IMG/VR virus record: IMGVR_UViG_3300049847_000331
Location: 1-43,818 of that record
DNA from: a virus
Reading direction: 5' to 3' (one strand)
DNA: 43,818 bases
Shown here: positions 5,419 to 35,086 of the stretch, piece by piece
How the letters are laid out: each line of letters begins with the position of its first letter
Position numbering within the stretch: the stretch's first letter is position 1
Program-made: the position numbers and the translations under genes
The notes under the pieces: generated by a model
Told to the model about the DNA's origin: nothing
Database searches by the model: none
Seen by the model: only the letters and a program-made list of their open reading frames with translations

Positions 5419-7023
5419 ATGTCTACTGTAGGTATTTTTAATACTTCTAACTTTGCGAAGCGAGAAGTTAAACCTTCTTTCTTCTCCACCATACATAAAA
5501 AGATGCCACGGGGCTCTGCTCCGCTAACTGCAATCATGTCTCAAGTTAAATCTGAAAATATTTCTAATACAGAAATTACTTGGTTTTCTGAGCGTCCCGT
5601 GTTTCCAATGTTGGCTTTGGCTGTTAACCTCCCTGCGGCTGCTCCCAATTCCATTACTCAAATTGAAATAGTGAGTTCTGAAAATATCATAGAGAAAATG
5701 GTATTTGAAATTGAAGGTACATTTGAGCAAATTCTAGTTACTGCTGTAATGGGCAATGTAGTTGCAATTAAGCGTGGAGTTGGAACTGTTCCTCCTTCTG
5801 CTGTTCCAGCTGGAACTCGTGCAATGCAAATTGGAACTGCATTTGAAGAATCTAGTATTTGTCCTTTGCCAATGTCTCGCTCTTTTGAAAGTGCGCGAAA
5901 CGTAACTCAAATTTTCCGCAATAGTTGGGGTATTTCTGGTACTGCTACTGCCGTTGCTACACAAGTTGGCGGAGATCGCAGCGCAAAGAACAAAAAAGAT
6001 ATGATGGAATACCACGCTATTGATATGGAAAAATCAATGTTGTTCGGTCAAAAAACTGAAACCGTGCTAAATGGTCAACCATTCCGTAAAATGGATGGAA
6101 TTATTAGTATGATTCGACAGTACGCCCCACAGAATATTAAATTCGCCGGGGATACTGTAACCTATGATCAGTTTGACGAAATGACTGATTCGTTGTTTGA
6201 TGTGATCACTGATAACTCCGAAGCCAATGACCGTGTTATCTTCACGGACAAAACCGGAATGAAAGTAGTTAATGACCTAGGTCGTAATTTTGGCGTACTC
6301 CAGACCACTATGGGAGAAACTAAATTTGGTATGCAATTCCGCGAGTTTAGTACCACTCGTGGCAATTTTAAAATGGTAGAGCATCCACTATTTAACGTAT
6401 ATCCTTCCCTTGTAGGTATGATGCTAGTTCTGGATTTGTCTCCGTTGATTCGTCATCCTCTGAATGGACGAGATTCTGTATATAAAGATATATATGTGGA
6501 CGATTGCCAAGATTCAAAAGGTGGAACAATCTTGACTGAAATGACTATTTCTAATTCTAACTTGGAATCTAGTGGAGTTATTTACGGAATGAAAAATGCA
6601 GCCTGCGCTCCTTGCCGTGTTCCAGTTTCTACTCATATGGCTTACTTGTCATGTGATAAACCTTGCGGTTCTGGTGAAGTTGCTCCTGGTTCTACGATAA
6701 CTTTGTCTATTAATAGTGCAAAACCATCGCAGAACGTAATCGTTAAATGGGCAGGTGCAAATATTACCGTAACTATTGACGCTGCTGGTAATGGAACTGC
6801 AACTGCAGTAGTTGGAACTTTGCCAGTATACACTTTTAGTGTAGTTCCAAATACTGACGGTCAAACTATTTGGGCTGCCGGTGTAACTAGTGTATGCGTT
6901 ACCCAGCCTTGCGATAATGGTGATGCTGTAAATGATTCTCATGGTGTGGATTTGGTAGTTACTCAGGCTCCTCCATTTGTTGGTTCTAACCCTGATGCAA
7001 ATCAAGGAAACGTACCACAATGA
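5419..7023 (+). CDS. Major capsid protein, SU10/DUF5309 type, with C-terminal Ig-like domain
   Basis: This 534-residue protein forms the icosahedral shell. The first 390 residues or so resemble the SU10/DUF5309 HK97-fold capsid family: a conserved N-terminal arm region, the ARNVTQIFRNSWGISGTA segment (about 158-175), and a helix near 200 with HAIDMEKSMLFGQ. From about residue 408 to 505 a further beta-rich segment with four Cys (YLSCDKPCGSG and VCVTQPCDNG at its ends) looks like an immunoglobulin-like domain. The C-terminus is Gly/Asn/Pro-rich. Such domains usually project from the capsid surface. AAGGA precedes the start. The stop overlaps the next start (ATGA). Confidence 0.9.
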   Translation: MSTVGIFNTSNFAKREVKPSFFSTIHKKMPRGSAPLTAIMSQVKSENISNTEITWFSERPVFPMLALAVNLPAAAPNSITQIEIVSSENIIEKMVFEIEGTFEQILVTAVMGNVVAIKRGVGTVPPSAVPAGTRAMQIGTAFEESSICPLPMSRSFESARNVTQIFRNSWGISGTATAVATQVGGDRSAKNKKDMMEYHAIDMEKSMLFGQKTETVLNGQPFRKMDGIISMIRQYAPQNIKFAGDTVTYDQFDEMTDSLFDVITDNSEANDRVIFTDKTGMKVVNDLGRNFGVLQTTMGETKFGMQFREFSTTRGNFKMVEHPLFNVYPSLVGMMLVLDLSPLIRHPLNGRDSVYKDIYVDDCQDSKGGTILTEMTISNSNLESSGVIYGMKNAACAPCRVPVSTHMAYLSCDKPCGSGEVAPGSTITLSINSAKPSQNVIVKWAGANITVTIDAAGNGTATAVVGTLPVYTFSVVPNTDGQTIWAAGVTSVCVTQPCDNGDAVNDSHGVDLVVTQAPPFVGSNPDANQGNVPQ

Positions 7024-8377: not shown

Positions 8378-9166
8378 ATGACTACTAAGTCCGCTTTTAA
8401 GTATATTAGTCTGCTAGAAAGTAAGATAGACTCTCCATATTCCTCTGCTTCTATAGTACGGTCTACTTCGGGCAATATTTTAAAAGTCACAGGTACTAAT
8501 TATACTGAATTTAAATTAGATAAACAATACGCGGGCAAGCATATACAAGTTGTACTACGCAATACTAGCTTAGAGTCAGGAAAATACTCTTTTGGTATTT
8601 CAAATAAGTTAACATTAAACTCGGCATTGGCCATTGGAGTAGTATCGGGGTTTGAAACCAAGGTACTGCTTATGCCTTGCCCGTTAAATTTTGATACACT
8701 ATCCTACTCTGCCTCTCCCTCAGTAGAGATAATTGGCTTACATGTAGTTACCGCGGATTTTGAAAAAGAATTAAAGCTGCTAACTCCAGAATCATTTGTT
8801 ATCTTAGATCTACTATCTCGTAATTATATATCTTCTACAAAAGAAATTACCCTTGGTTCCTCTTTTCTATTATCAGAGGGTAATTTCGCGTGTAAAACTG
8901 GGGCTCAATACAATAAAGATGCCAGACTATCACTGCAAATAACATCAAAAAAAGTTAATATATACATTGGAACCGATGCATTTTTAATAAATGGGGCTGC
9001 TACATTTTGTGTAGATATTCCAGCCCAGGAAATGGACATAGTAATAACTCCATATTCTCTTACCTCCATTGTTCCTTCCTTAATTTGGAATGAACAAAAA
9101 CACACAGGGTATGTACTACCTAACATTCCAATATGGACATTAGAAAATCATGCAGAAAGAAATTAG
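8378..9166 (+). CDS. Putative tail structural protein
   Basis: This 262-residue protein is not recognised. It is almost entirely beta-strand in character, with alternating hydrophobic and polar residues, few charged helices and no signal peptide. It starts one base after the adaptor stop, behind AGGA. Its end overlaps the next gene by 17 bases, so adaptor, this gene and the next form one translation unit. It is probably a virion protein of the short tail. Confidence 0.6.
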   Translation: MTTKSAFKYISLLESKIDSPYSSASIVRSTSGNILKVTGTNYTEFKLDKQYAGKHIQVVLRNTSLESGKYSFGISNKLTLNSALAIGVVSGFETKVLLMPCPLNFDTLSYSASPSVEIIGLHVVTADFEKELKLLTPESFVILDLLSRNYISSTKEITLGSSFLLSEGNFACKTGAQYNKDARLSLQITSKKVNIYIGTDAFLINGAATFCVDIPAQEMDIVITPYSLTSIVPSLIWNEQKHTGYVLPNIPIWTLENHAERN

Positions 9167-10748
9167 ACTCAATTTAACTGCCGCATATATTCCATTATGT
9201 GTGTCTTTTTCTGGTCAACAAACAGTAGTACGCAATGTAGAAGATACTAATTATGTAATAACTAATGCATACTCCGGAGAAGGAGCAGATAAAGATCTTG
9301 GGATACCAATGGTAATATATGGAGAAAACATATTGCCTACTATTCAGGGAATGCAATCAATCTCATATAAGCAGCAAACCCAGCCATTAGGAAATGGACA
9401 GATATCTAATTTCAATGAGGCCATAATTCTTAGAGATAAGAACGAGTCTCGTACCCTTTTCTGTCCGGCCAACGGAACTAATTATATTTTAAATAATGGT
9501 GCATGGCTATCTTTTCCATTTCCTTTGAAAAACTCAGGAATGGTAACACATGCATATTCAAACCAGCGGACATTTATATTTTATGCCAATACCGGGGCGT
9601 ATGAATATACCATAAATGGATTCTCTAGGGTAACACTCGCTGGCCTGGAAGTGGCAAATATAAGTGGAATAACTAATGCGAATAACTATCTAATCGCATG
9701 GGACTCCAAACGCATTTATTATTCTTCTGCAATTAATCCAACTGACTTTATTCCTTCTCTTTCTTCTGGAGCAGGGTCTGAATTTGTGACTAAAGTTAGG
9801 GGCGCTATTGTTTGTTGTTTACCAACAGCAGATGGATTTATAATATATACAACCGCTAATGCAGTTCTGGCCACGTATACGGACAATATTCGGTATCCTT
9901 GGAGATATAAAGAAATTGAAGGGTCTGCTGGAATAAATAAACCTGAACACGTTTCCTATGATGCTAACTATAGTGGACATTTTGTATGGACAGAATCTGG
10001 GCTAATGATGTATTCGCAAGGAAAAGCATCAATTATATTCCCTGAAATAACAGATTTTATTTCAAATAAGTTAGTAGAAGAATACATAGGAGAAACTGGA
10101 AAGCAAAATCACGTAAATGAAGCCGCTGTATTTTCTTCTGAAACTCAGGATTTTCATTCTCGTCCATACGGGGATAATGGAATTGTTGAATATCATCTAT
10201 TAAATCAAGCCCATGTCAAGTTAACTTTTGTAGGCTCTAGGTATTTTGCTTTCTCCTATGGCTACAGAAATAAACACTATGATTGGGTAATAGTATACGA
10301 TTTTGGCCTACGGAGATTTGGTAAATTAAAAATACACCATAGTGACTGCTTCCATTCTGTGCCAACCCCAGGGTCAGAACTAGTTCCAAAAGAAATATTT
10401 GGGTTTTTGCAGCCAAATGGAGCTGTAGTATTAGTTGATTTTTCTGACATGGCAACAGATGGAGGAGTTCTGCTACTTGGTAGAATCCAGCATACTAGGG
10501 GAAAACTATTAGAAGTACAAGAGACTGAGTTATCTTCTTCCCGTCCTTCTGATATTACATTGCATATTCTTCCTTCCAATGATGGAAAGAATTTTCTACC
10601 TGCTGTGCTTCCGCAAGAAGCAATCAAAGAAAGAAACTATAGTAGGTGGCACTCCCGTGTCACAGTTAAAAACTGCGTTCTTGCAATTAAGGGAACATTC
10701 AATCTAGTTGACACACTACTAAAAGTAGTAGTAAAAGGAGTAAAATAA
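9150..10748 (+). CDS. Putative tail tube/hub protein (tubular B/nozzle-like)
   Basis: This 532-residue protein is beta-rich with repeated hydrophobic strands separated by Gly/Asn turns, for example about 145-255 and 320-400, reminiscent of beta-propeller nozzle proteins of short-tailed phages. It follows the adaptor, as T7 gp12 follows gp11, and is of a size expected for a nozzle. The role is inferred from layout, since no diagnostic motif is visible. It overlaps the previous gene by 17 bases and its stop overlaps the next start (TAATG). Confidence 0.55.
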   Translation: MQKEIRLNLTAAYIPLCVSFSGQQTVVRNVEDTNYVITNAYSGEGADKDLGIPMVIYGENILPTIQGMQSISYKQQTQPLGNGQISNFNEAIILRDKNESRTLFCPANGTNYILNNGAWLSFPFPLKNSGMVTHAYSNQRTFIFYANTGAYEYTINGFSRVTLAGLEVANISGITNANNYLIAWDSKRIYYSSAINPTDFIPSLSSGAGSEFVTKVRGAIVCCLPTADGFIIYTTANAVLATYTDNIRYPWRYKEIEGSAGINKPEHVSYDANYSGHFVWTESGLMMYSQGKASIIFPEITDFISNKLVEEYIGETGKQNHVNEAAVFSSETQDFHSRPYGDNGIVEYHLLNQAHVKLTFVGSRYFAFSYGYRNKHYDWVIVYDFGLRRFGKLKIHHSDCFHSVPTPGSELVPKEIFGFLQPNGAVVLVDFSDMATDGGVLLLGRIQHTRGKLLEVQETELSSSRPSDITLHILPSNDGKNFLPAVLPQEAIKERNYSRWHSRVTVKNCVLAIKGTFNLVDTLLKVVVKGVK

Positions 10749-12689: not shown

Positions 12690-12742
12690 GGTATGCACTT
12701 TAGACTGTAGCTTACTTAGTTATTATTTGACGAGAGATTTAT

Positions 12743-13567
12743 ATGGGAATAAATAATATGTGGATTAGAAATAATTCTAAGTCAAAGGGAGTTCCTTTTG
12801 ACCGCTTTATTGTTCCTACTGTTAGAGTTAATGGACACACAATAGATATGCCACTTGGGGAAAAATTCGATTGTGCTGTAATTCCTGATTGTACTATTCC
12901 ATATTCGCCTCCATCGCTAATAATACTTGATGTTCCTTTACATTTTCCACCGTATGAAGGAGTTCCAATTCCTTCCATTGGCGGAATTCTAGCAAGAGCT
13001 GATAACTTTACTCCCGAGGCACTTTCCCTTGGAGTTCTAATTAGAGCAAAACTAGACACAGTAAGTAATAACCTTATTAATGTAGGAGAAATAACTATAT
13101 TCCAAAATGGCGAATTTGTTATTCCAATTGACTTTAGTAAGGCAGGGGAAGAAATATCTTATTTAGTTCCATTTCCTGATTCAGCAATTAGTATTGCTAC
13201 TATCGATAATCTAATTATTTCTCCCTTATTCTCGGTAATAATTGATCCTCTGCCTGTACATACACAGTTTCAATTATCTTGTACTACTAGCGCAGCTCCT
13301 GATTTTTGGATTAACTTATTTGTGTTTTCCCGGGCTCCAAGTGGAATTTACGCTATACTAGACGGAGATGATAATCTAGTAGATTTTGGTGCCAATATTC
13401 TACCTAATCCGTATTTACACGAAAAGGGAGGCCCCGATTATGGATTTGGAACAGGCACAGCATTTTATGCTACTGTTCCTCCTAGTTCTAAAATACCGGG
13501 AACTATATGGAAAGTAACACATGACAATGATGTTATACACACTGCCGTAGTTCCCAATTGTACATAA
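12743..13567 (+). CDS. Fibre-like virion protein A, shared N-terminal anchor module
   Basis: This 274-residue protein is the first of four genes that share an N-terminal segment of about 40 residues. Here it has Gly16, Pro18, FIVPTVRVNGH (22-32), a Gly39, and an IPD ending near 47-49. The rest is beta-rich and unlike the other three. A constant N-terminus with a variable C-terminus is typical of fibres or decoration proteins that dock to a common virion site. AGAG lies before the ATG. The body (about 70-270) shows no known catalytic motif. Confidence 0.7.
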   Translation: MGINNMWIRNNSKSKGVPFDRFIVPTVRVNGHTIDMPLGEKFDCAVIPDCTIPYSPPSLIILDVPLHFPPYEGVPIPSIGGILARADNFTPEALSLGVLIRAKLDTVSNNLINVGEITIFQNGEFVIPIDFSKAGEEISYLVPFPDSAISIATIDNLIISPLFSVIIDPLPVHTQFQLSCTTSAAPDFWINLFVFSRAPSGIYAILDGDDNLVDFGANILPNPYLHEKGGPDYGFGTGTAFYATVPPSSKIPGTIWKVTHDNDVIHTAVVPNCT

Positions 13568-13590
13568 ATTTATATTTATAGGATACTATA

Positions 13591-14199
13591 ATGTCTTCCC
13601 TATCTAATTTTTTCCATAGTACACATGCCACGCCTGGTATTCCTATGCAGCAGTTTGTAACTCCGCTAGTTCGTGTTAACGGGCACGAACAAGAAATGAA
13701 GCATGGAATGAAAATAGATCCAAATTTCATTCCGAATACTAATACTCCTGCCCCTACAAATTCAATAGTGGCTCCCAAAATGCATTGGGTAGTTCAGGAC
13801 GGTGATGTTGCGGAAGAAGGAATGCTAGTAGAAATATTTCCTACAACTGGCGTAATTCCCCTGCATTTTAAGATAGTAGATGTACCTGCTGGCGCAATAG
13901 CTACTTATCAAACCATCATAAATAGAACACTTTCATACTCTGGAGGGGAATGGAGTTTTGATGTAAGTGACGCGGCTATCTTAAATAGTGTAAATTTTGG
14001 ACCAAATGAATGGCTACTTGCTCTTAGTACTCCACAAGATGTAAATAGTAATTATGTACTTAATGCTGCAGTTACTATTTATTTACTAGTAAATGGAGTT
14101 CGCGCAGGGTATATTCGAGTTTCTCCCTCTTACATAACGGAAGATGGAACAATTCGTGCACTCTACAATTTTGCACCCTTTGTTTTTCTACCCGCATAA
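13591..14199 (+). CDS. Fibre-like virion protein B, shared N-terminal anchor module
   Basis: This 202-residue protein has the same N-terminal module as its neighbours, aligned without a gap to protein A: Gly16, Pro18, FVTPLVRVNGHEQEM (22-36), HGMKI (38-42) and FIP (46-48). After a Pro/Thr linker, residues 60-202 form a single beta-rich domain. AGGA lies before the ATG. The role is inferred as a virion surface or receptor-related protein from the shared module and its place among tail genes. Confidence 0.7.
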   Translation: MSSLSNFFHSTHATPGIPMQQFVTPLVRVNGHEQEMKHGMKIDPNFIPNTNTPAPTNSIVAPKMHWVVQDGDVAEEGMLVEIFPTTGVIPLHFKIVDVPAGAIATYQTIINRTLSYSGGEWSFDVSDAAILNSVNFGPNEWLLALSTPQDVNSNYVLNAAVTIYLLVNGVRAGYIRVSPSYITEDGTIRALYNFAPFVFLPA

Positions 14200-14253
14200 A
14201 ACAGTTTAGTTTTTAGTTAGTTTATTTTATTAATTTTATTTTAAGGATTTATT

Positions 14254-14613
14254 ATGTCAATCAAACCCAACTGGACAGTTACTCGCAACGTTGTTCCTGG
14301 AGTTCCAGAAGAACGCTATGTTGTACCTATAGTCCGTGTGAATGGAATGGAAACTGAAATGGGCCATGGAATGAAAATTCCTCACCAATTTCTTCCTGAC
14401 CAACTAGCTGGTGGACTGTCTCCAGCACAAGCAGTACAAGCTGTAGTTGATTCTTTGGATACTTCTGCTACTCCACCCGCAGTACTAGATAATCCACAAA
14501 TTCCCACTGTACATACTGGAACCAATACTATGTATATGGGAAAGCCAGATGTATTTATTGAAATAACTACACCAGCTGGAATTTTCAAAGTCCCAGGTTA
14601 CGCTGTAGTTTAA
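14254..14613 (+). CDS. Fibre-like virion protein C (short), shared N-terminal anchor module
   Basis: This 119-residue protein has the shared module at residues 16-48 (Gly16, Pro18, RYVVPIVRVNGMETEM, HGMKI, FLP), with Met in place of the His seen in the other three. Only about 70 residues follow, including a short strand region (TPAGIFKVPGYAVV) at the end. It is either a minimal member or a remnant that lost its distal domain; no frameshift is visible within it. A strong AAGGA site is present, which favours it being expressed. Confidence 0.7.
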   Translation: MSIKPNWTVTRNVVPGVPEERYVVPIVRVNGMETEMGHGMKIPHQFLPDQLAGGLSPAQAVQAVVDSLDTSATPPAVLDNPQIPTVHTGTNTMYMGKPDVFIEITTPAGIFKVPGYAVV

Positions 14614-14654
14614 ATCTTTAAACCCCAATCTAAATTTAAATATTGGAGAATATC

Positions 14655-14930
14655 ATGGATAGTAATTCAGATCATTCTGGTTGGGGAGCCCTAAAAGAAT
14701 TAGCAAAGAAACCGAAAGAGAATGAAGCAATGATAATCAAAGTATTATTGGCAGCATTAACAGCTTCAGCAGGAGCAGGAGCTAGCATGCTTCTTTCTCA
14801 TGATAGGGAAATAGCTGTTATCTCTGCACAAAAGCAAGAAGATAAAGAAAAATATAATAGGATTTTATCTAAGCTGGATATGCTAGATATAACCGTTAAG
14901 GAGCTGTCCATTCGCATGGGCGTGAAATAA
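14655..14930 (+). CDS. Small membrane protein with coiled coil, inside the fibre array
   Basis: This 91-residue protein starts at the ATG at 14655, with GGAG just upstream; an in-frame TTG at 14643 is unlikely. One hydrophobic segment (about 26-47, MIIKVLLAALTASAGAGASM) follows a charged N-terminus. The C-terminus (50-88) is a charged helical coiled coil. This could be an inner-membrane spanin, a holin accessory or a pinholin, but no partner outer-membrane lipoprotein is visible. Its place between fibre-like genes C and D is odd for a lysis gene. Confidence 0.65.
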   Translation: MDSNSDHSGWGALKELAKKPKENEAMIIKVLLAALTASAGAGASMLLSHDREIAVISAQKQEDKEKYNRILSKLDMLDITVKELSIRMGVK

Positions 14931-14934
14931 TATC

Positions 14935-16167
14935 ATGACTACACCTTCTCGTTTTTTGGATTCTAGTAAATTTAATGGGCTACCGGAAGGCCGATATGTA
15001 GTTCCTGTTGTCCGTGTAAATGGACATGAAACTGATATCGGGCAAGGACAAGTAATTCCAGCAGAATTCCTAGAGCCACATCAATTAACTTTCGACCAAG
15101 CCACTGGTATATTAACTATTGGTGGGCGCTCTATTGATCTGGGAGAACAAGATCGTTTTTACATAGACTGTAAAAGCGCCCCTATTTTGAATATGACCAA
15201 TTTGGTAACATGTTCAAACCTAACTGAAATAATAGATGCATCCACTGACCCAGAAATAGATTCTGGATTAAAATTGCAAACTCCAGGAAATATGTTCTCT
15301 GGTATAAAAATAAGACTACATTCAACTGCTAATACACCAAGTGGTTTACGGTTAAGTGCAGAAGGAATAGCAATTGCCTCTCTGGATGTATTTAATTTAC
15401 TTAAGCAATATCTGGATATAGAATACACTACTCCTACCAGTGTAGCTACTATAATAAATTCTATCGTTCCTGCTATAGTAACCAATCAGCTGGAGACTAA
15501 ATTAACGGCAGGAACTAATATACAAATAACATTAGCTCCTGGAGGGGAAATAGTTATATCGTCAACTGCTCCAGTAGGAACAGTAACGTCCGTAACCCTT
15601 ACAGCAGCTCCAAGTACGCCAGATCTTATACCTGGGACTTTTACTTCATTCCAGAGTAAGCAAATCAATTTAGTTGCTTTTGTTAATGGAGTACAGGGAA
15701 CTTTACCAATATTAGAAATGAATAGTATTTTCAAGGATAATGCTATTCTTTACTCTCTAATGGGGCTGCCTATGTTCTATAGGAACTTAGCTCCAAATAC
15801 ACTTCCTGGCCCGGGGACTATTGTATTTTTAGGACAACCAGATAGTATATATAGATTTGGTAGTGGAAATACAGCGGGCCCATTTACTCCTGATGCAACC
15901 TACGGTACTATAGTTACTAGCGCAGGAGCTGTAGATGATTATACTGGGCCATTTACAATAGGAAGAAGTCTTCTTGCTGTAACAGCACTAGAATATCCAA
16001 TTCTATTCTCTGCATTAATTTCTCCTGCTGGAGTTGCAGTATATCGTAACGGAATTCTAGTTAAAATAGCTAGACTAGTTGTGCTTAATGAAGAAGGATT
16101 AACATTGAACTATGTTAATGTTCCACTAGCTAGACTCGTTGGTGGCGTAACCATCCCAACAGTATAG
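14935..16167 (+). CDS. Fibre-like virion protein D (longest), shared N-terminal anchor module
   Basis: This 410-residue protein carries the module shifted by one residue: Gly15, Pro17, RYVVPVVRVNGHETDI (20-35) and GQGQVIPAEFLEP (37-49). It continues with a strand region (51-140), a helical stretch (about 145-185), and GTNIQITLAPGGEIVISSTA (194-213), a repeat seen in phage tail fibres, then a beta-rich C-terminus. It is the best candidate in this array for a tail fibre or spike. No ribosome binding site is obvious; it starts 4 bases after the previous stop and may be coupled. Confidence 0.7.
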   Translation: MTTPSRFLDSSKFNGLPEGRYVVPVVRVNGHETDIGQGQVIPAEFLEPHQLTFDQATGILTIGGRSIDLGEQDRFYIDCKSAPILNMTNLVTCSNLTEIIDASTDPEIDSGLKLQTPGNMFSGIKIRLHSTANTPSGLRLSAEGIAIASLDVFNLLKQYLDIEYTTPTSVATIINSIVPAIVTNQLETKLTAGTNIQITLAPGGEIVISSTAPVGTVTSVTLTAAPSTPDLIPGTFTSFQSKQINLVAFVNGVQGTLPILEMNSIFKDNAILYSLMGLPMFYRNLAPNTLPGPGTIVFLGQPDSIYRFGSGNTAGPFTPDATYGTIVTSAGAVDDYTGPFTIGRSLLAVTALEYPILFSALISPAGVAVYRNGILVKIARLVVLNEEGLTLNYVNVPLARLVGGVTIPTV

Positions 16168-16213
16168 TAATATATCTAGTCAAGATTATCAATTTTAATA
16201 GAAAGAAACTATC

Positions 16214-16876
16214 ATGGCTCTCTTAGCAATTACCGAACTAGTTAAGTATAATGCTGCTAGTTCAAAACATTTACCATTTATTGGTGCAGATTTAATTCCA
16301 GGGGCTGCCCTGCAATTATCTGTTACTGCAAACAATGGACTGTCCGTAAATGGAACTGGCCTCTTTGCGGCCAAAGCTGCATCTGCAACATATAATGGAG
16401 TAACTAACGTACTCACCATTACTAACTCAGATGCATCTACTGTCACTGTTAACTTAGGTGTTCTGGCAGCAGACAAGTTTCTGACTTCTACATCATATAA
16501 TGCAGTGACAAAAGAGATTACTCTGACAATGTCGGATGCGTCTACTTTTGTTATTCCACTAGCAGACCTGATTCCAGTAGTTACTGCAAGTTCTACCTCC
16601 ATTACCGTTTCCGGTAATGGACAAACAGGAACTCCAATTACTGCAGCTGCAATTATATCTCCAAACCCAGGAAATGGACTTAGTATACTGGCAAACGGAT
16701 TATTTGTAGCAACTACTACACCGGCATTAGCAGGTACGCCGCCCGCTACAGTAAATGATGGTAGTATTTCTACTGTAATATTTGGAACAAATACTGCAAC
16801 ATTGGGCAATCCAGTAGCATGGGAAGCAATAACTATTTTGGGTGTACCATATAAGCGGCCACTGTACGCGGGTTAA
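16214..16876 (+). CDS. Fibre-like virion protein E, second anchor motif
   Basis: This 220-residue protein has N-terminal SKHLPFIGADLIPG (17-30), sharing K-H-x-P-x-x-G-A-D-x-I-P with the next gene. The rest is Thr/Ala/Ser-rich with tail-fibre type repeats (GNGLSILANGLF, NNGLSVNGTGLF) common in phage fibre shafts. AGAAAGAAA lies before the ATG. It may use a different docking site from proteins A to D. Assigned to tail fibre or decoration proteins by pattern. Confidence 0.65.
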   Translation: MALLAITELVKYNAASSKHLPFIGADLIPGAALQLSVTANNGLSVNGTGLFAAKAASATYNGVTNVLTITNSDASTVTVNLGVLAADKFLTSTSYNAVTKEITLTMSDASTFVIPLADLIPVVTASSTSITVSGNGQTGTPITAAAIISPNPGNGLSILANGLFVATTTPALAGTPPATVNDGSISTVIFGTNTATLGNPVAWEAITILGVPYKRPLYAG

Positions 16877-16910
16877 TCTTATATTAGTCTAACAAATAAG
16901 GAAATCAATA

Positions 16911-17273
16911 ATGGCCGCAGTAGCTCCAATTATTTTTAGTGTAGATAAGCACACGCCAATGACAGGGGCGGATACTATTCCTATTGCTAATGTGCCGTTG
17001 GAGCCCTTTCAATCTGGTACAGCAGCATTAACTTTGACGGCTTTAATGAATGTATTAATTCATACTGGAGCTGCTGTTACCTACACCTTACCTGCCGCCA
17101 ATGCAGCAGGAATTCCAGGAAAACAATTTACTATTGTAAATCATGGAAGTGGAACTATTACATTTTCTCTTCCTATTCGTACTGCAACAGCTACTACTAT
17201 AACAACACTATTAGTTGCTACTACGATGACTATAATATCAGATGGAACGCAATGGCGTAGGTTAGGCACTTAA
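16911..17273 (+). CDS. Fibre-like virion protein F, second anchor motif
   Basis: This 120-residue protein has DKHTPMTGADTIPI (12-25), matching the motif in the preceding gene. Residues 55-120 (TYTLPAAN..., GKQFTIVNHGSGTITF, and DGTQWRRLG at the end) match the small beta domain often found at the tips or shafts of phage fibres. AAGGA lies before the ATG. The stop abuts the next start directly, with no gap. It is probably a short accessory fibre. Confidence 0.65.
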   Translation: MAAVAPIIFSVDKHTPMTGADTIPIANVPLEPFQSGTAALTLTALMNVLIHTGAAVTYTLPAANAAGIPGKQFTIVNHGSGTITFSLPIRTATATTITTLLVATTMTIISDGTQWRRLGT

Positions 17274-17654
17274 ATGAAAGTAGCACATCTACAAAGAAAG
17301 TATAGGACGGAGAAGCCTACACTTTCTGTACTTTCTTTCTATGAGAATAAGACTTATATTCTAGAATTGCCCTATAAGGATAATAAACAAAGTATAAGTT
17401 GCATTCCAGAGGGGCAGTACTTATGTACTTGGGTATTATCTCCTAAATTTGGATGGACTTACCAAGTAACTAATGTCCCAAATAGGGGAAATATTTTAAT
17501 TCACTCTGGTAATTCGGCTATAGATACTCATGGCTGTCTATTACCAGGATTAAGTACTGATTTAGATTTACATGTTTGGGGTTCCAAGCCTGCTTTATCT
17601 AGAATACAAAGTTTCTTTAATAGAGACAACTTTAAATTAATTATTAAAAGTTAG
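17274..17654 (+). CDS. DUF5675 family protein, candidate endolysin
   Basis: This 126-residue protein fits the DUF5675 family in length and core pattern: SCIPEGQY (42-49), then IHSGNSAIDTHGCLLPG (76-92). His77 followed by Gly87-Cys88 recalls the His...Ser/His-Gly-Cys signature of L,D-transpeptidase (YkuD) folds. That would make it a peptidoglycan-acting enzyme, but the comparison is from memory. Its gene starts on the base after protein F and lies 9 bases before the holin, so it probably supplies the wall-degrading half of lysis. No other endolysin is visible in the window. Confidence 0.75.
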   Translation: MKVAHLQRKYRTEKPTLSVLSFYENKTYILELPYKDNKQSISCIPEGQYLCTWVLSPKFGWTYQVTNVPNRGNILIHSGNSAIDTHGCLLPGLSTDLDLHVWGSKPALSRIQSFFNRDNFKLIIKS

Positions 17655-18772: not shown

Positions 18773-20917
18773 ATGGCAACCTCTCCCTACTCTGATGCAA
18801 GAAATAATCCATCCACATATAGTGGAGAAACAGAAGCGCCTACGCCTAATATTCCAACTAAAAGGGGATCCTTTGATCAATATGCTGAGTATGTAAAACA
18901 AGTAGAAACAGAATTTGAATTACCTCCTGGATTACTTAAAGCAATGATGGGACAGGAATCAGGATTTAATGCTCAGGCTGTTTCTCCAAAAGGAGCAGCA
19001 GGATTAATGCAATTAATGCCAGCTACTGCAAAAGAACTCGGAGTTACTAACGTATTTGATATTAATCAGAATATCAAAGCTGGGGCAAAATATATTAAAA
19101 ATCAGATAGTAGCAGAGGGCGGAGATATAGAAAAAGGACTACAGAGATATAATATGGGGCCTACCGCATTTAAAGAATATCAGGCAGGTAAGCGGAGTCT
19201 ACCAAATGAAACCAAGAATTATACTGCAAAGATACTACCTAATGTTCCACAGGAATCCATAATTGAACATAATGCAAAATGGGGAATTAATCAATCCTCC
19301 ACTCCAACTGCACAAGGCACACCTCCAGATTCTCTAATTAATAACCAAGCAGGAATTACTACTCCTTCTATTCCAGATGACGAGTCGAAGTTAAATGCAA
19401 TGGTTGCACAGAATGCAAAAGCGTATGACAATGCTTATGCAGAATTGCAAAAAGTAAATACTCAATCTAATCAAGCAGCCAACGTAATACTAGATACGTA
19501 TGGCTCTAATCCTGCTGGAGTATATTCTGCTTTAGATCGTTCTGCTCAGGCAGCTAAACAACTTGAAGAATCCATAATAAGAAAACAGGCTATCATTCGA
19601 GGTGAATATCAGCCGTCTAATCCTAATCCAATAATGGCAGCATTGGAAAATTTTGCAGTTCTGCGCTCAGCAAGAAAAACAATAAAAACAGATATTGCGG
19701 ATTTGACTGCACTCGCTAAAGCCCGCAATGAAATTAATAAGAACATAAATGATTCTCAAGTGAATTCAGCACGGGGAAATACCTCATTAGCTGATGAAAT
19801 TAATATTCGTTCTTCCGCTCGCGCCACTGCATCACAAACAACGGGAATTGATTTGAAAGTAGAAGGAATGCGTGCATCGCAAGACAGGGTTGCACAAAAT
19901 ACGGAATTCAAAGAAAGAGTTCAATCTGCAAAAGAAGCAGAAGCTAGATTTAATCAGAAGTATAGAACAGCCCTCCAAGCAGAAAAAGTTGGAAATGCAG
20001 AGATACAAAATAAAATTAAAGAAGTAGAGCTGGAAAGGAAAAAGCTTCAGCTAGAAGCCGAGAATCTAAAGATAGCGAAAGCCCTTGCCGGCATTGATAG
20101 TGTTGATGCTTTCAACGAAGCAGCATTAAAAGTTCATATATCTTCTGGTTACCCAGCCTCCAATTTTACACCTGTAAATAGTCTTGCAGATATACAAAAG
20201 ATATATCCAAAGGATGTTATTGAGAGAATCAAAACTACGGTTTCTGGCTCTCCTGCTGTTGCTCCTTCAATTACCGAAGCTGTTTCCAATATAAATAATG
20301 TACCTGGAGTTACAGAAGAACAACTACTTACTAGTAAAAAAGTACTTGATAGATTGGCAGCTAGTGAAGTAACTACCATTGGAAAAACTACTGTTCCAAT
20401 GTCAGAAAAAGAAAAAATGCAAACAATAAAAAGTAGAGAAGCCAAAGTACGAATGGAAGTAGTACAGAGCCCTACTCTAGATACGGATTTTAATAAAGAT
20501 ATTAAAAATGCTCTGCCATTTAATAAGGCGCTAGAGTTGTCTGGAACTCCAATTAGAGAAAAATTAAAGAGTGCTGGAGTCGATCCTACCAAAATCATGT
20601 CAGATTCACATCTTGCATTTGAGTCTGCAAAGTTAGTTACTTCTGGTCAATTTAGCCGAACTGACATAGTAAATGACTTAGCTGTGTTTTATAAAACATA
20701 TGCGCAGAAACGAGGGATGGAATCTGGCCTAGATAAATTAGGAATTAATTTAATACCTGATAGATATTTAGTAGTCAGAAAAGGACAAGAGAACCAACCC
20801 TATGATTTGACAAAGCCTGCGGCAATATCAAACTATTTGGATGGTTACTTACAAGACGCAAAGAAAGCCACTGAGATTAAATCTAATTTTATGGATTTTG
20901 GGCAGGTCAGTAATTAA
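18773..20917 (+). CDS. Ejection protein with lytic transglycosylase (SLT) domain
   Basis: In this 714-residue protein, residues 35-170 form a Slt-type transglycosylase domain: the catalytic Glu62 in GQESGFN, then SPKGAAGLMQLMPATAKELG (71-90), INQNIKAGAKYI (98-109) and ALQRYNMG-like YNMGP (126-130). It would cut peptidoglycan during genome ejection. In T7 this domain is on gp16; here it is on a separate protein. Residues 200-714 are long, charged and helical, with Ala/Lys/Glu-rich heptads. TGGA lies before the ATG. It is followed by the 1822-residue gene. Confidence 0.9.
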   Translation: MATSPYSDARNNPSTYSGETEAPTPNIPTKRGSFDQYAEYVKQVETEFELPPGLLKAMMGQESGFNAQAVSPKGAAGLMQLMPATAKELGVTNVFDINQNIKAGAKYIKNQIVAEGGDIEKGLQRYNMGPTAFKEYQAGKRSLPNETKNYTAKILPNVPQESIIEHNAKWGINQSSTPTAQGTPPDSLINNQAGITTPSIPDDESKLNAMVAQNAKAYDNAYAELQKVNTQSNQAANVILDTYGSNPAGVYSALDRSAQAAKQLEESIIRKQAIIRGEYQPSNPNPIMAALENFAVLRSARKTIKTDIADLTALAKARNEINKNINDSQVNSARGNTSLADEINIRSSARATASQTTGIDLKVEGMRASQDRVAQNTEFKERVQSAKEAEARFNQKYRTALQAEKVGNAEIQNKIKEVELERKKLQLEAENLKIAKALAGIDSVDAFNEAALKVHISSGYPASNFTPVNSLADIQKIYPKDVIERIKTTVSGSPAVAPSITEAVSNINNVPGVTEEQLLTSKKVLDRLAASEVTTIGKTTVPMSEKEKMQTIKSREAKVRMEVVQSPTLDTDFNKDIKNALPFNKALELSGTPIREKLKSAGVDPTKIMSDSHLAFESAKLVTSGQFSRTDIVNDLAVFYKTYAQKRGMESGLDKLGINLIPDRYLVVRKGQENQPYDLTKPAAISNYLDGYLQDAKKATEIKSNFMDFGQVSN

Positions 20918-35009: not shown

Positions 35010-35086
35010 TGGTGCATTCTATTGGATTTGAACCAATGACCAAAGGATTATGAGTCCTCTGCTCTAACCAACTGAGCTAAGAATGC
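35010..35086 (-). tRNA. tRNA with CAU anticodon, probably tRNA-Ile2 (reads AUA)
   Basis: The 77-base minus-strand sequence folds into a full cloverleaf. A perfect 7-bp acceptor stem GCATTCT/AGAATGC is followed by A and an encoded CCA. The D stem is GCTC/GAGC, the anticodon stem GAGGA/TCCTT has one G-T pair, and the T stem ATTGG/CCAAT is perfect. The loop CTCATAA gives anticodon CAT (35050-35052). A paired first base and no GGG/CCC anticodon stem exclude an initiator. The variable loop TGGTC matches what I recall of E. coli tRNA-Ile2 more than elongator Met. ATA codons are abundant here, so Ile2 would be useful. Met remains possible. Confidence 0.92.

Follow-up and report, generated by a model that had tools for sequence, protein, structure and literature searches.

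A candidate N-terminal docking peptide shared by four otherwise unrelated proteins of an environmental short-tailed phage

Shared N-termini in described phages

In Klebsiella phages, short N-terminal "conserved peptides" link secondary receptor-binding proteins to an anchor protein; such peptides have been described for the KP32, KP34, JD001 and Menlow groups and also for K1-5/SP6 (PMC6872550). Phages CBA120 and RaK2 assemble branched fibres via conserved N-terminal domains (PMC10253068). In phage SU10, the short tail fibre gp16 docks on the nozzle protein gp17 through Tyr23-Ile24-Tyr25 (PMC9509320). Here we describe a related arrangement in the 43.8-kb virus record IMGVR_UViG_3300049847_000331 of IMG/VR, analysed over its whole length of 43,818 nucleotides (hereafter the window), in which four genes between positions 12743 and 16167 begin with the same N-terminal segment, termed module A, and are unrelated to one another thereafter. 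Judged by these sequence comparisons, the arrangement is already known from other phages and the sequence of the module is new.

As in the Klebsiella phages, adjacent and presumptive virion genes of the window carry one short N-terminal segment and then diverge (PMC6872550). The Klebsiella receptor-binding proteins, however, are depolymerases of large size that in most groups pair with a T4 gp10-like anchor (PMC6872550), whereas the proteins of the window range from 119 to 410 amino acids, have no recognised enzymatic domain or anchor, and carry a segment that was unmatched in the phage collection searched. The branched tailspikes of CBA120 and RaK2/phiK64-1 likewise combine conserved N-termini with unrelated distal domains, in their case on one virion (PMC8825819, PMC10253068); these phages are myoviruses and use larger folded N-terminal domains (D1 and D2), neither of which was detected in the window. 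The resemblance to SU10 extends to the capsid protein, which matches the Pfam family SU10_MCP, to a local match between a nozzle-like protein and gp17, and to the interleaving of fibre and lysis genes near the nozzle gene, represented here by a hydrophobic open reading frame (ORF) at 14655-14930; SU10, however, has one short-fibre gene. The [FY]-[IV]-x of module A spans residues 22-24 of p12743, p13591 and p14254 (proteins named after the first positions of their genes) and residues 21-23 of p14935, which recalls the Tyr23-Ile24-Tyr25 of SU10, but this positional likeness concerns three residues, may be due to chance and is suggestive only.

A conserved core at the start of four proteins

The four ORFs, all on the plus strand and beginning with ATG, are named after their first positions: p12743 (12743-13567, 274 amino acids), p13591 (13591-14199, 202 amino acids), p14254 (14254-14613, 119 amino acids) and p14935 (14935-16167, 410 amino acids). 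The core of module A occupies residues 16-48 in p12743 (12788-12886, GVPFDRFIVPTVRVNGHTIDMPLGEKFDCAVIP), p13591 (13636-13734) and p14254 (14299-14397), and residues 15-47 in p14935 (14977-15075). In this order the cores read GVPFDRFIVPTVRVNGHTIDMPLGEKFDCAVI, GIPMQQFVTPLVRVNGHEQEMKHGMKIDPNFI, GVPEERYVVPIVRVNGMETEMGHGMKIPHQFL and GLPEGRYVVPVVRVNGHETDIGQGQVIPAEFL, with the consensus G-x-P-x-x-[RQ]-[FY]-[IV]-x-P-x-V-R-V-N-G-x4-[MI]-x2-G-x2-[IF]. Beyond the module, p12743 and p13591 have distal parts without a match, that of p13591 probably being beta-rich according to a low-confidence model; p14254 is the minimal member, comprising module A, a short linker and a C-terminal module; and p14935 continues into a long distal part without database match that is fibre-like in appearance by our reading.

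The core aligns without gaps over 32-33 residues in all four proteins, starting at residue 16, 16, 16 and 15, respectively. The gap-free alignment claimed in the sequence-only reading of this DNA therefore holds for every core, the one-residue offset of p14935 being confined to the leader that precedes it. Pairs of cores are identical at 13-21 of 32 positions with BLOSUM z-scores of 7.7-10.6, and none of 20,000 shuffles reached any observed score. Profiles built on three members recovered the omitted fourth with expect (E) values of 2.5e-9, 4.3e-13, 3.7e-17 and 4.8e-13. Together these results bear out the claim that four genes open with the same N-terminal segment. No further frame passed in a six-frame search of the window with the same leave-one-out profiles, and a degenerate nucleotide pattern derived from the core had exactly four matches in the window and none in 100 shuffles.

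Conservation by column climbs at G-x-P, is maximal over P-x-V-R-V-N-G and is lost approximately 22 residues after the start of VRVNG. The leader, comprising the first 14-15 residues, is only weakly alike among the four proteins, except for an aromatic residue near position 7-8, and past the core none of the pairs scores clearly above its shuffles. The window thus contains four neighbouring genes with a common N-terminal segment and unrelated remainders. That the proteins diverge totally after the module, as had also been claimed, is correct among the four themselves, but the C-terminal half of p14254 matches the end of a neighbouring protein, p16214.

Synonymous codons indicate that the core is old. 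Among identical residue pairs in the cores, 42 of 91 share the same codon compared to 39.6 expected (methionine and tryptophan excluded; expectation based on the codon usage of the phage's structural genes). Codon sharing at the expected level implies that synonymous sites are saturated and hence that the copies separated long ago, and saturated synonymous sites combined with kept residues imply that the core has been maintained by selection at the protein level. An old and strictly kept start followed by unrelated remainders is the strongest evidence for a single function that the core serves in all four proteins.

Predicted function of module A

We propose that module A is probably an N-terminal docking peptide by which several small proteins, fibres or decorations, are held at one site of the virion. 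The peptide would comprise approximately 33 residues, or roughly 45 with the leader, and would allow four otherwise unrelated small appendages (short fibres or decorations) to attach at the same site of a short-tailed phage particle. The proteins are thus predicted to be part of the virion with the module as their attachment point, and may be either alternative or co-assembled parts that bind receptors or decorate the particle. The docking site would most likely be on the tail, at or beside the nozzle-like protein encoded upstream, the tail being favoured because of gene position.

The array lies downstream of the gene for this nozzle-like (tail tube B-like) protein (9150-10748, plus strand) with two genes between them, upstream of lysis-like and internal virion genes, and within the block of morphogenesis genes seen in Fredfastierviridae-like phages. 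The nozzle-like protein, encoded outside the array itself, is a candidate docking platform. It has a local match to SU10 gp17 in a search of ten proteins (E 1e-4), which in a profile comparison has an E value of 0.0025 and a probability of only 12%, and it matches a virion structural protein in PHROGs (E 9.7e-11). A constant anchor with varied distal domains, as suggested by the sequence-only reading, is partly borne out, as the interpretation that fits best with the homology and protein-level conservation of the core, the unrelated distal parts, the position of the array shortly after the nozzle-like gene and next to fibre-like ORFs, the duplication of the gene after the nozzle in relatives, and the precedents in other phages.

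Module A in databases and related phages

The impression that the module falls outside named families held in each collection searched. Neither the four proteins nor the module itself had a match beyond chance in PHROGs, Pfam, NCBIfam, PDB sequences, INPHARED phages or the IMG/VR relatives described below, and two DNA patterns, including that of the core, had no match in IMG/VR viral contigs, collections that may omit the record of the window and its near copies, so that close carriers of the module could exist unseen. Candidate matches were dismissed as chance. The major tail protein of Lactobacillus phage LfeSau (tblastn, E 0.03) extends over no more than the leader and one half of the core, belongs to a tail tube gene of a siphovirus that is unrelated, and weakens to E 0.9 with a longer query; matches to Klebsiella and plasmid sequences had E values of 4-9; and among PDB entries the module matched a chitosanase (E 2.1) and p14935 matched AhlC (E 0.16).

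Relatives of the phage were collected as 80 IMG/VR loci via a capsid profile and 27 via two nozzle profiles. A profile scan for module A covered 110 loci, comprising the IMG/VR loci minus the last one plus four phage records, and the N-terminal sequences of the omitted locus were inspected by eye. Contigs L012 and L093, the two nearest relatives, stop short of the array position. L013 ranks next in closeness; at the corresponding gene place (12708-12911 of that locus) it has a 67-amino acid ORF that contains V-R-Q-N-G-x4-M-P-x-G-x-x-I and is possibly a stand-alone form of module A, its E value of 0.07 not being significant alone.

The arrangement itself recurs among these relatives. At least four ORFs follow the nozzle gene in 45 of the loci (293 ORFs in total), and each of these loci has at most one pair of similar N-termini. 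In L039 (12208-13638) two genes after the nozzle gene are 47% identical over their 60 N-terminal residues (E 7e-13) and divergent over the remainder, which by our comparison is an independent instance of this arrangement; a weaker pair is present in L032/L033. Since loci have one such pair at most, convincing in L039 and weaker in L032/L033, shared N-termini are, within the loci compared, a recurring but uncommon feature of this phage group with differing sequences, and the window with its four members is the extreme case.

Weighing of alternatives

Several results argue against module A being a docking peptide. The distal parts of p12743, p13591, p14254 and p14935 have no recognised fibre, tailspike or depolymerase match in the domain and phage searches. 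No T4 gp10-like anchor is found among the Pfam, PHROG and NCBIfam matches in the array, a search that divergent anchors would escape. Module A and the N-terminus of gp16, the short tail fibre of SU10, have no sequence similarity, and homology to that fibre was rejected for this reason. The module is above threshold in none of the 110 loci of the profile scan. Finally, AlphaFold2 models made from few alignment rows for two of the four proteins, p14254 and p13591, have a mean predicted local distance difference test score (pLDDT) of 41 and 40, below the level at which a fold could be claimed. Both low-confidence models place strands at residues 26-29 and 32-35 that form a hairpin around V-R-V-N-G, the best-scored region of the p13591 model. 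This agreement would suit a reading of module A as a small beta-hairpin cap that serves the folding or trimerisation of fibre-like chains, these having no common docking partner, but residues at saturated codons are conserved across G-x-P, [RQ]-[FY]-[IV]-x-P and N-G-H, which appears to exceed the needs of a generic hairpin, and we think this reading unlikely. The saturated codons also bear on the suggestion that the common segment has no role at the protein level and reflects recent duplication or a regulatory element shared as DNA. The genes are indeed in tandem and the DNA of three copies can still be aligned (61-73% over 49 nucleotides); saturation of the synonymous codons in the core nevertheless rejects both a recent duplication and a shared DNA element, the region has no more promoter-like sites than shuffles do, and the suggestion is hardly credible.

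Among readings of another kind, the chief competitor is that module A is a head-targeting leader, loading unrelated proteins into the capsid with distal parts that are internal or ejected. A short common N-terminal segment on unrelated proteins is found in the T4 internal proteins IPI-IPIII as their capsid targeting sequence (PMC9026906), and none of the distal parts in the window is recognisable as a fibre. The T4 sequence, however, is only about 10 residues long and is cleaved by the prohead protease, and the proteins that carry it are basic (PMC9026906), whereas the core of module A has 33 residues, the genes searched include no recognised prohead protease, and none of the four proteins is basic, all having more aspartate and glutamate than lysine and arginine. 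Their genes are also located in the tail block, and we regard loading into the head as an unlikely role. A variant of the docking proposal differs in the site only, with module A docking on the capsid and the proteins serving as head decorations or head fibres. The sequences themselves do not favour tail over head, and a C-terminal extension of the capsid protein common to close relatives points to an elaborated capsid surface, but the genes follow the nozzle-like gene and not the capsid gene; we give this variant some, though clearly minor, weight.

If module A is a docking peptide, it would provide a short docking tag, defined by its sequence, for a large group of environmental short-tailed phages that has received little study and for which the capsid query has at least 547 confirmed relatives in IMG/VR. 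The receptor-binding parts of these phages are hard to detect by homology, and comparing N-termini within one genome can flag appendage genes that have no database match. With 119 amino acids, p14254 would be a natural entry point for structural work.

A second shared module and neighbouring fibre-like genes

The C-terminal module of p14254 (residues 71-117, 14464-14604, plus strand) resembles the end of p16214 (residues 173-219, 16730-16870, plus strand), the product of a 220-amino acid ORF at 16214-16876 on the plus strand that lacks module A and comprises a short N-terminal motif and this C-terminal module. The two segments align without gaps with a Smith-Waterman score of 78 compared to 31.5 +/- 5.3 for shuffled sequences, none of 2000 shuffles reaching it, and the likeness is also found by tblastn (E 6.9e-5). 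This suggests that ends have been exchanged as units at both termini. The motif K-H-x-P-x-x-G-A-D-x-I-P-x-A of p16214 (16265-16312, plus strand) recurs in p16911 (16947-16994, plus strand; ORF 16911-17273), with a Smith-Waterman score of 47 compared to 23 +/- 4.5 and one of 2000 shuffles reaching it. The C-terminal part of p16911 has a weak, sub-threshold match to Phage_depo_C, and both p16214 and p16911 look fibre-like. Shared N-termini and one shared C-terminus are therefore spread over six genes from 12743 to 17273. These could be parts of a two-ended kit, in which module A would be a new virion-loading leader that carries several unrelated proteins into or onto the particle, the C-terminal module a second exchangeable end and p14254 a bare adaptor, an idea that we consider improbable.

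Phage identity and other genes of the window

The portal, capsid, terminase, nozzle-like and large internal virion proteins have distant homologues in Pseudomonas phage PaP2/119X (Fredfastierviridae), and also in Polaromonas phage Tiera, EBPR podovirus 3 and Aeromonas phage P5. The order of the block is the same as in PaP2, with identities of 27% over 81% of the query for the portal protein and 31% over 73% for the capsid protein. The phage is thus a distant relative of the Fredfastierviridae, and at such low identity membership in the family is not claimed. In addition to SU10_MCP, the capsid protein matches the solved capsid of phage VP1 (PDB 9in6, E 1.3e-59), whose capsid and portal structures (PDB 9in6, 8zkk, 8zkm) match the family of this phage. 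The C-terminus of the capsid protein (5419-7023) is approximately 135 residues longer than in PaP2-like phages; this extension, at least partly common to the closest IMG/VR relatives L012 and L013, looks like a putative immunoglobulin-type decoration domain.

The 91-amino acid ORF at 14655-14930 (plus strand; frame listed as 14643-14930), located between p14254 and p14935 and unrelated to them, lacks module A and has a single hydrophobic segment as well as a charged tail. It has a weak match to a spanin in PHROGs (E 0.076) and is holin- or spanin-like by appearance only. A DUF5675 protein (17274-17654; Pfam E 1.9e-26), encoded between the fibre-like and membrane-protein genes and also present in several relatives, is probably lysis-associated. 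Further downstream, a large protein (18773-20917) has an N-terminal transglycosylase-type region and matches a lytic tail protein in PHROGs (E 5e-36), and is probably an ejected peptidoglycan-cutting protein. The window also contains a tRNA-Met gene on the minus strand (35010-35086), and a tRNA-Met is likewise present in EBPR podovirus 3.

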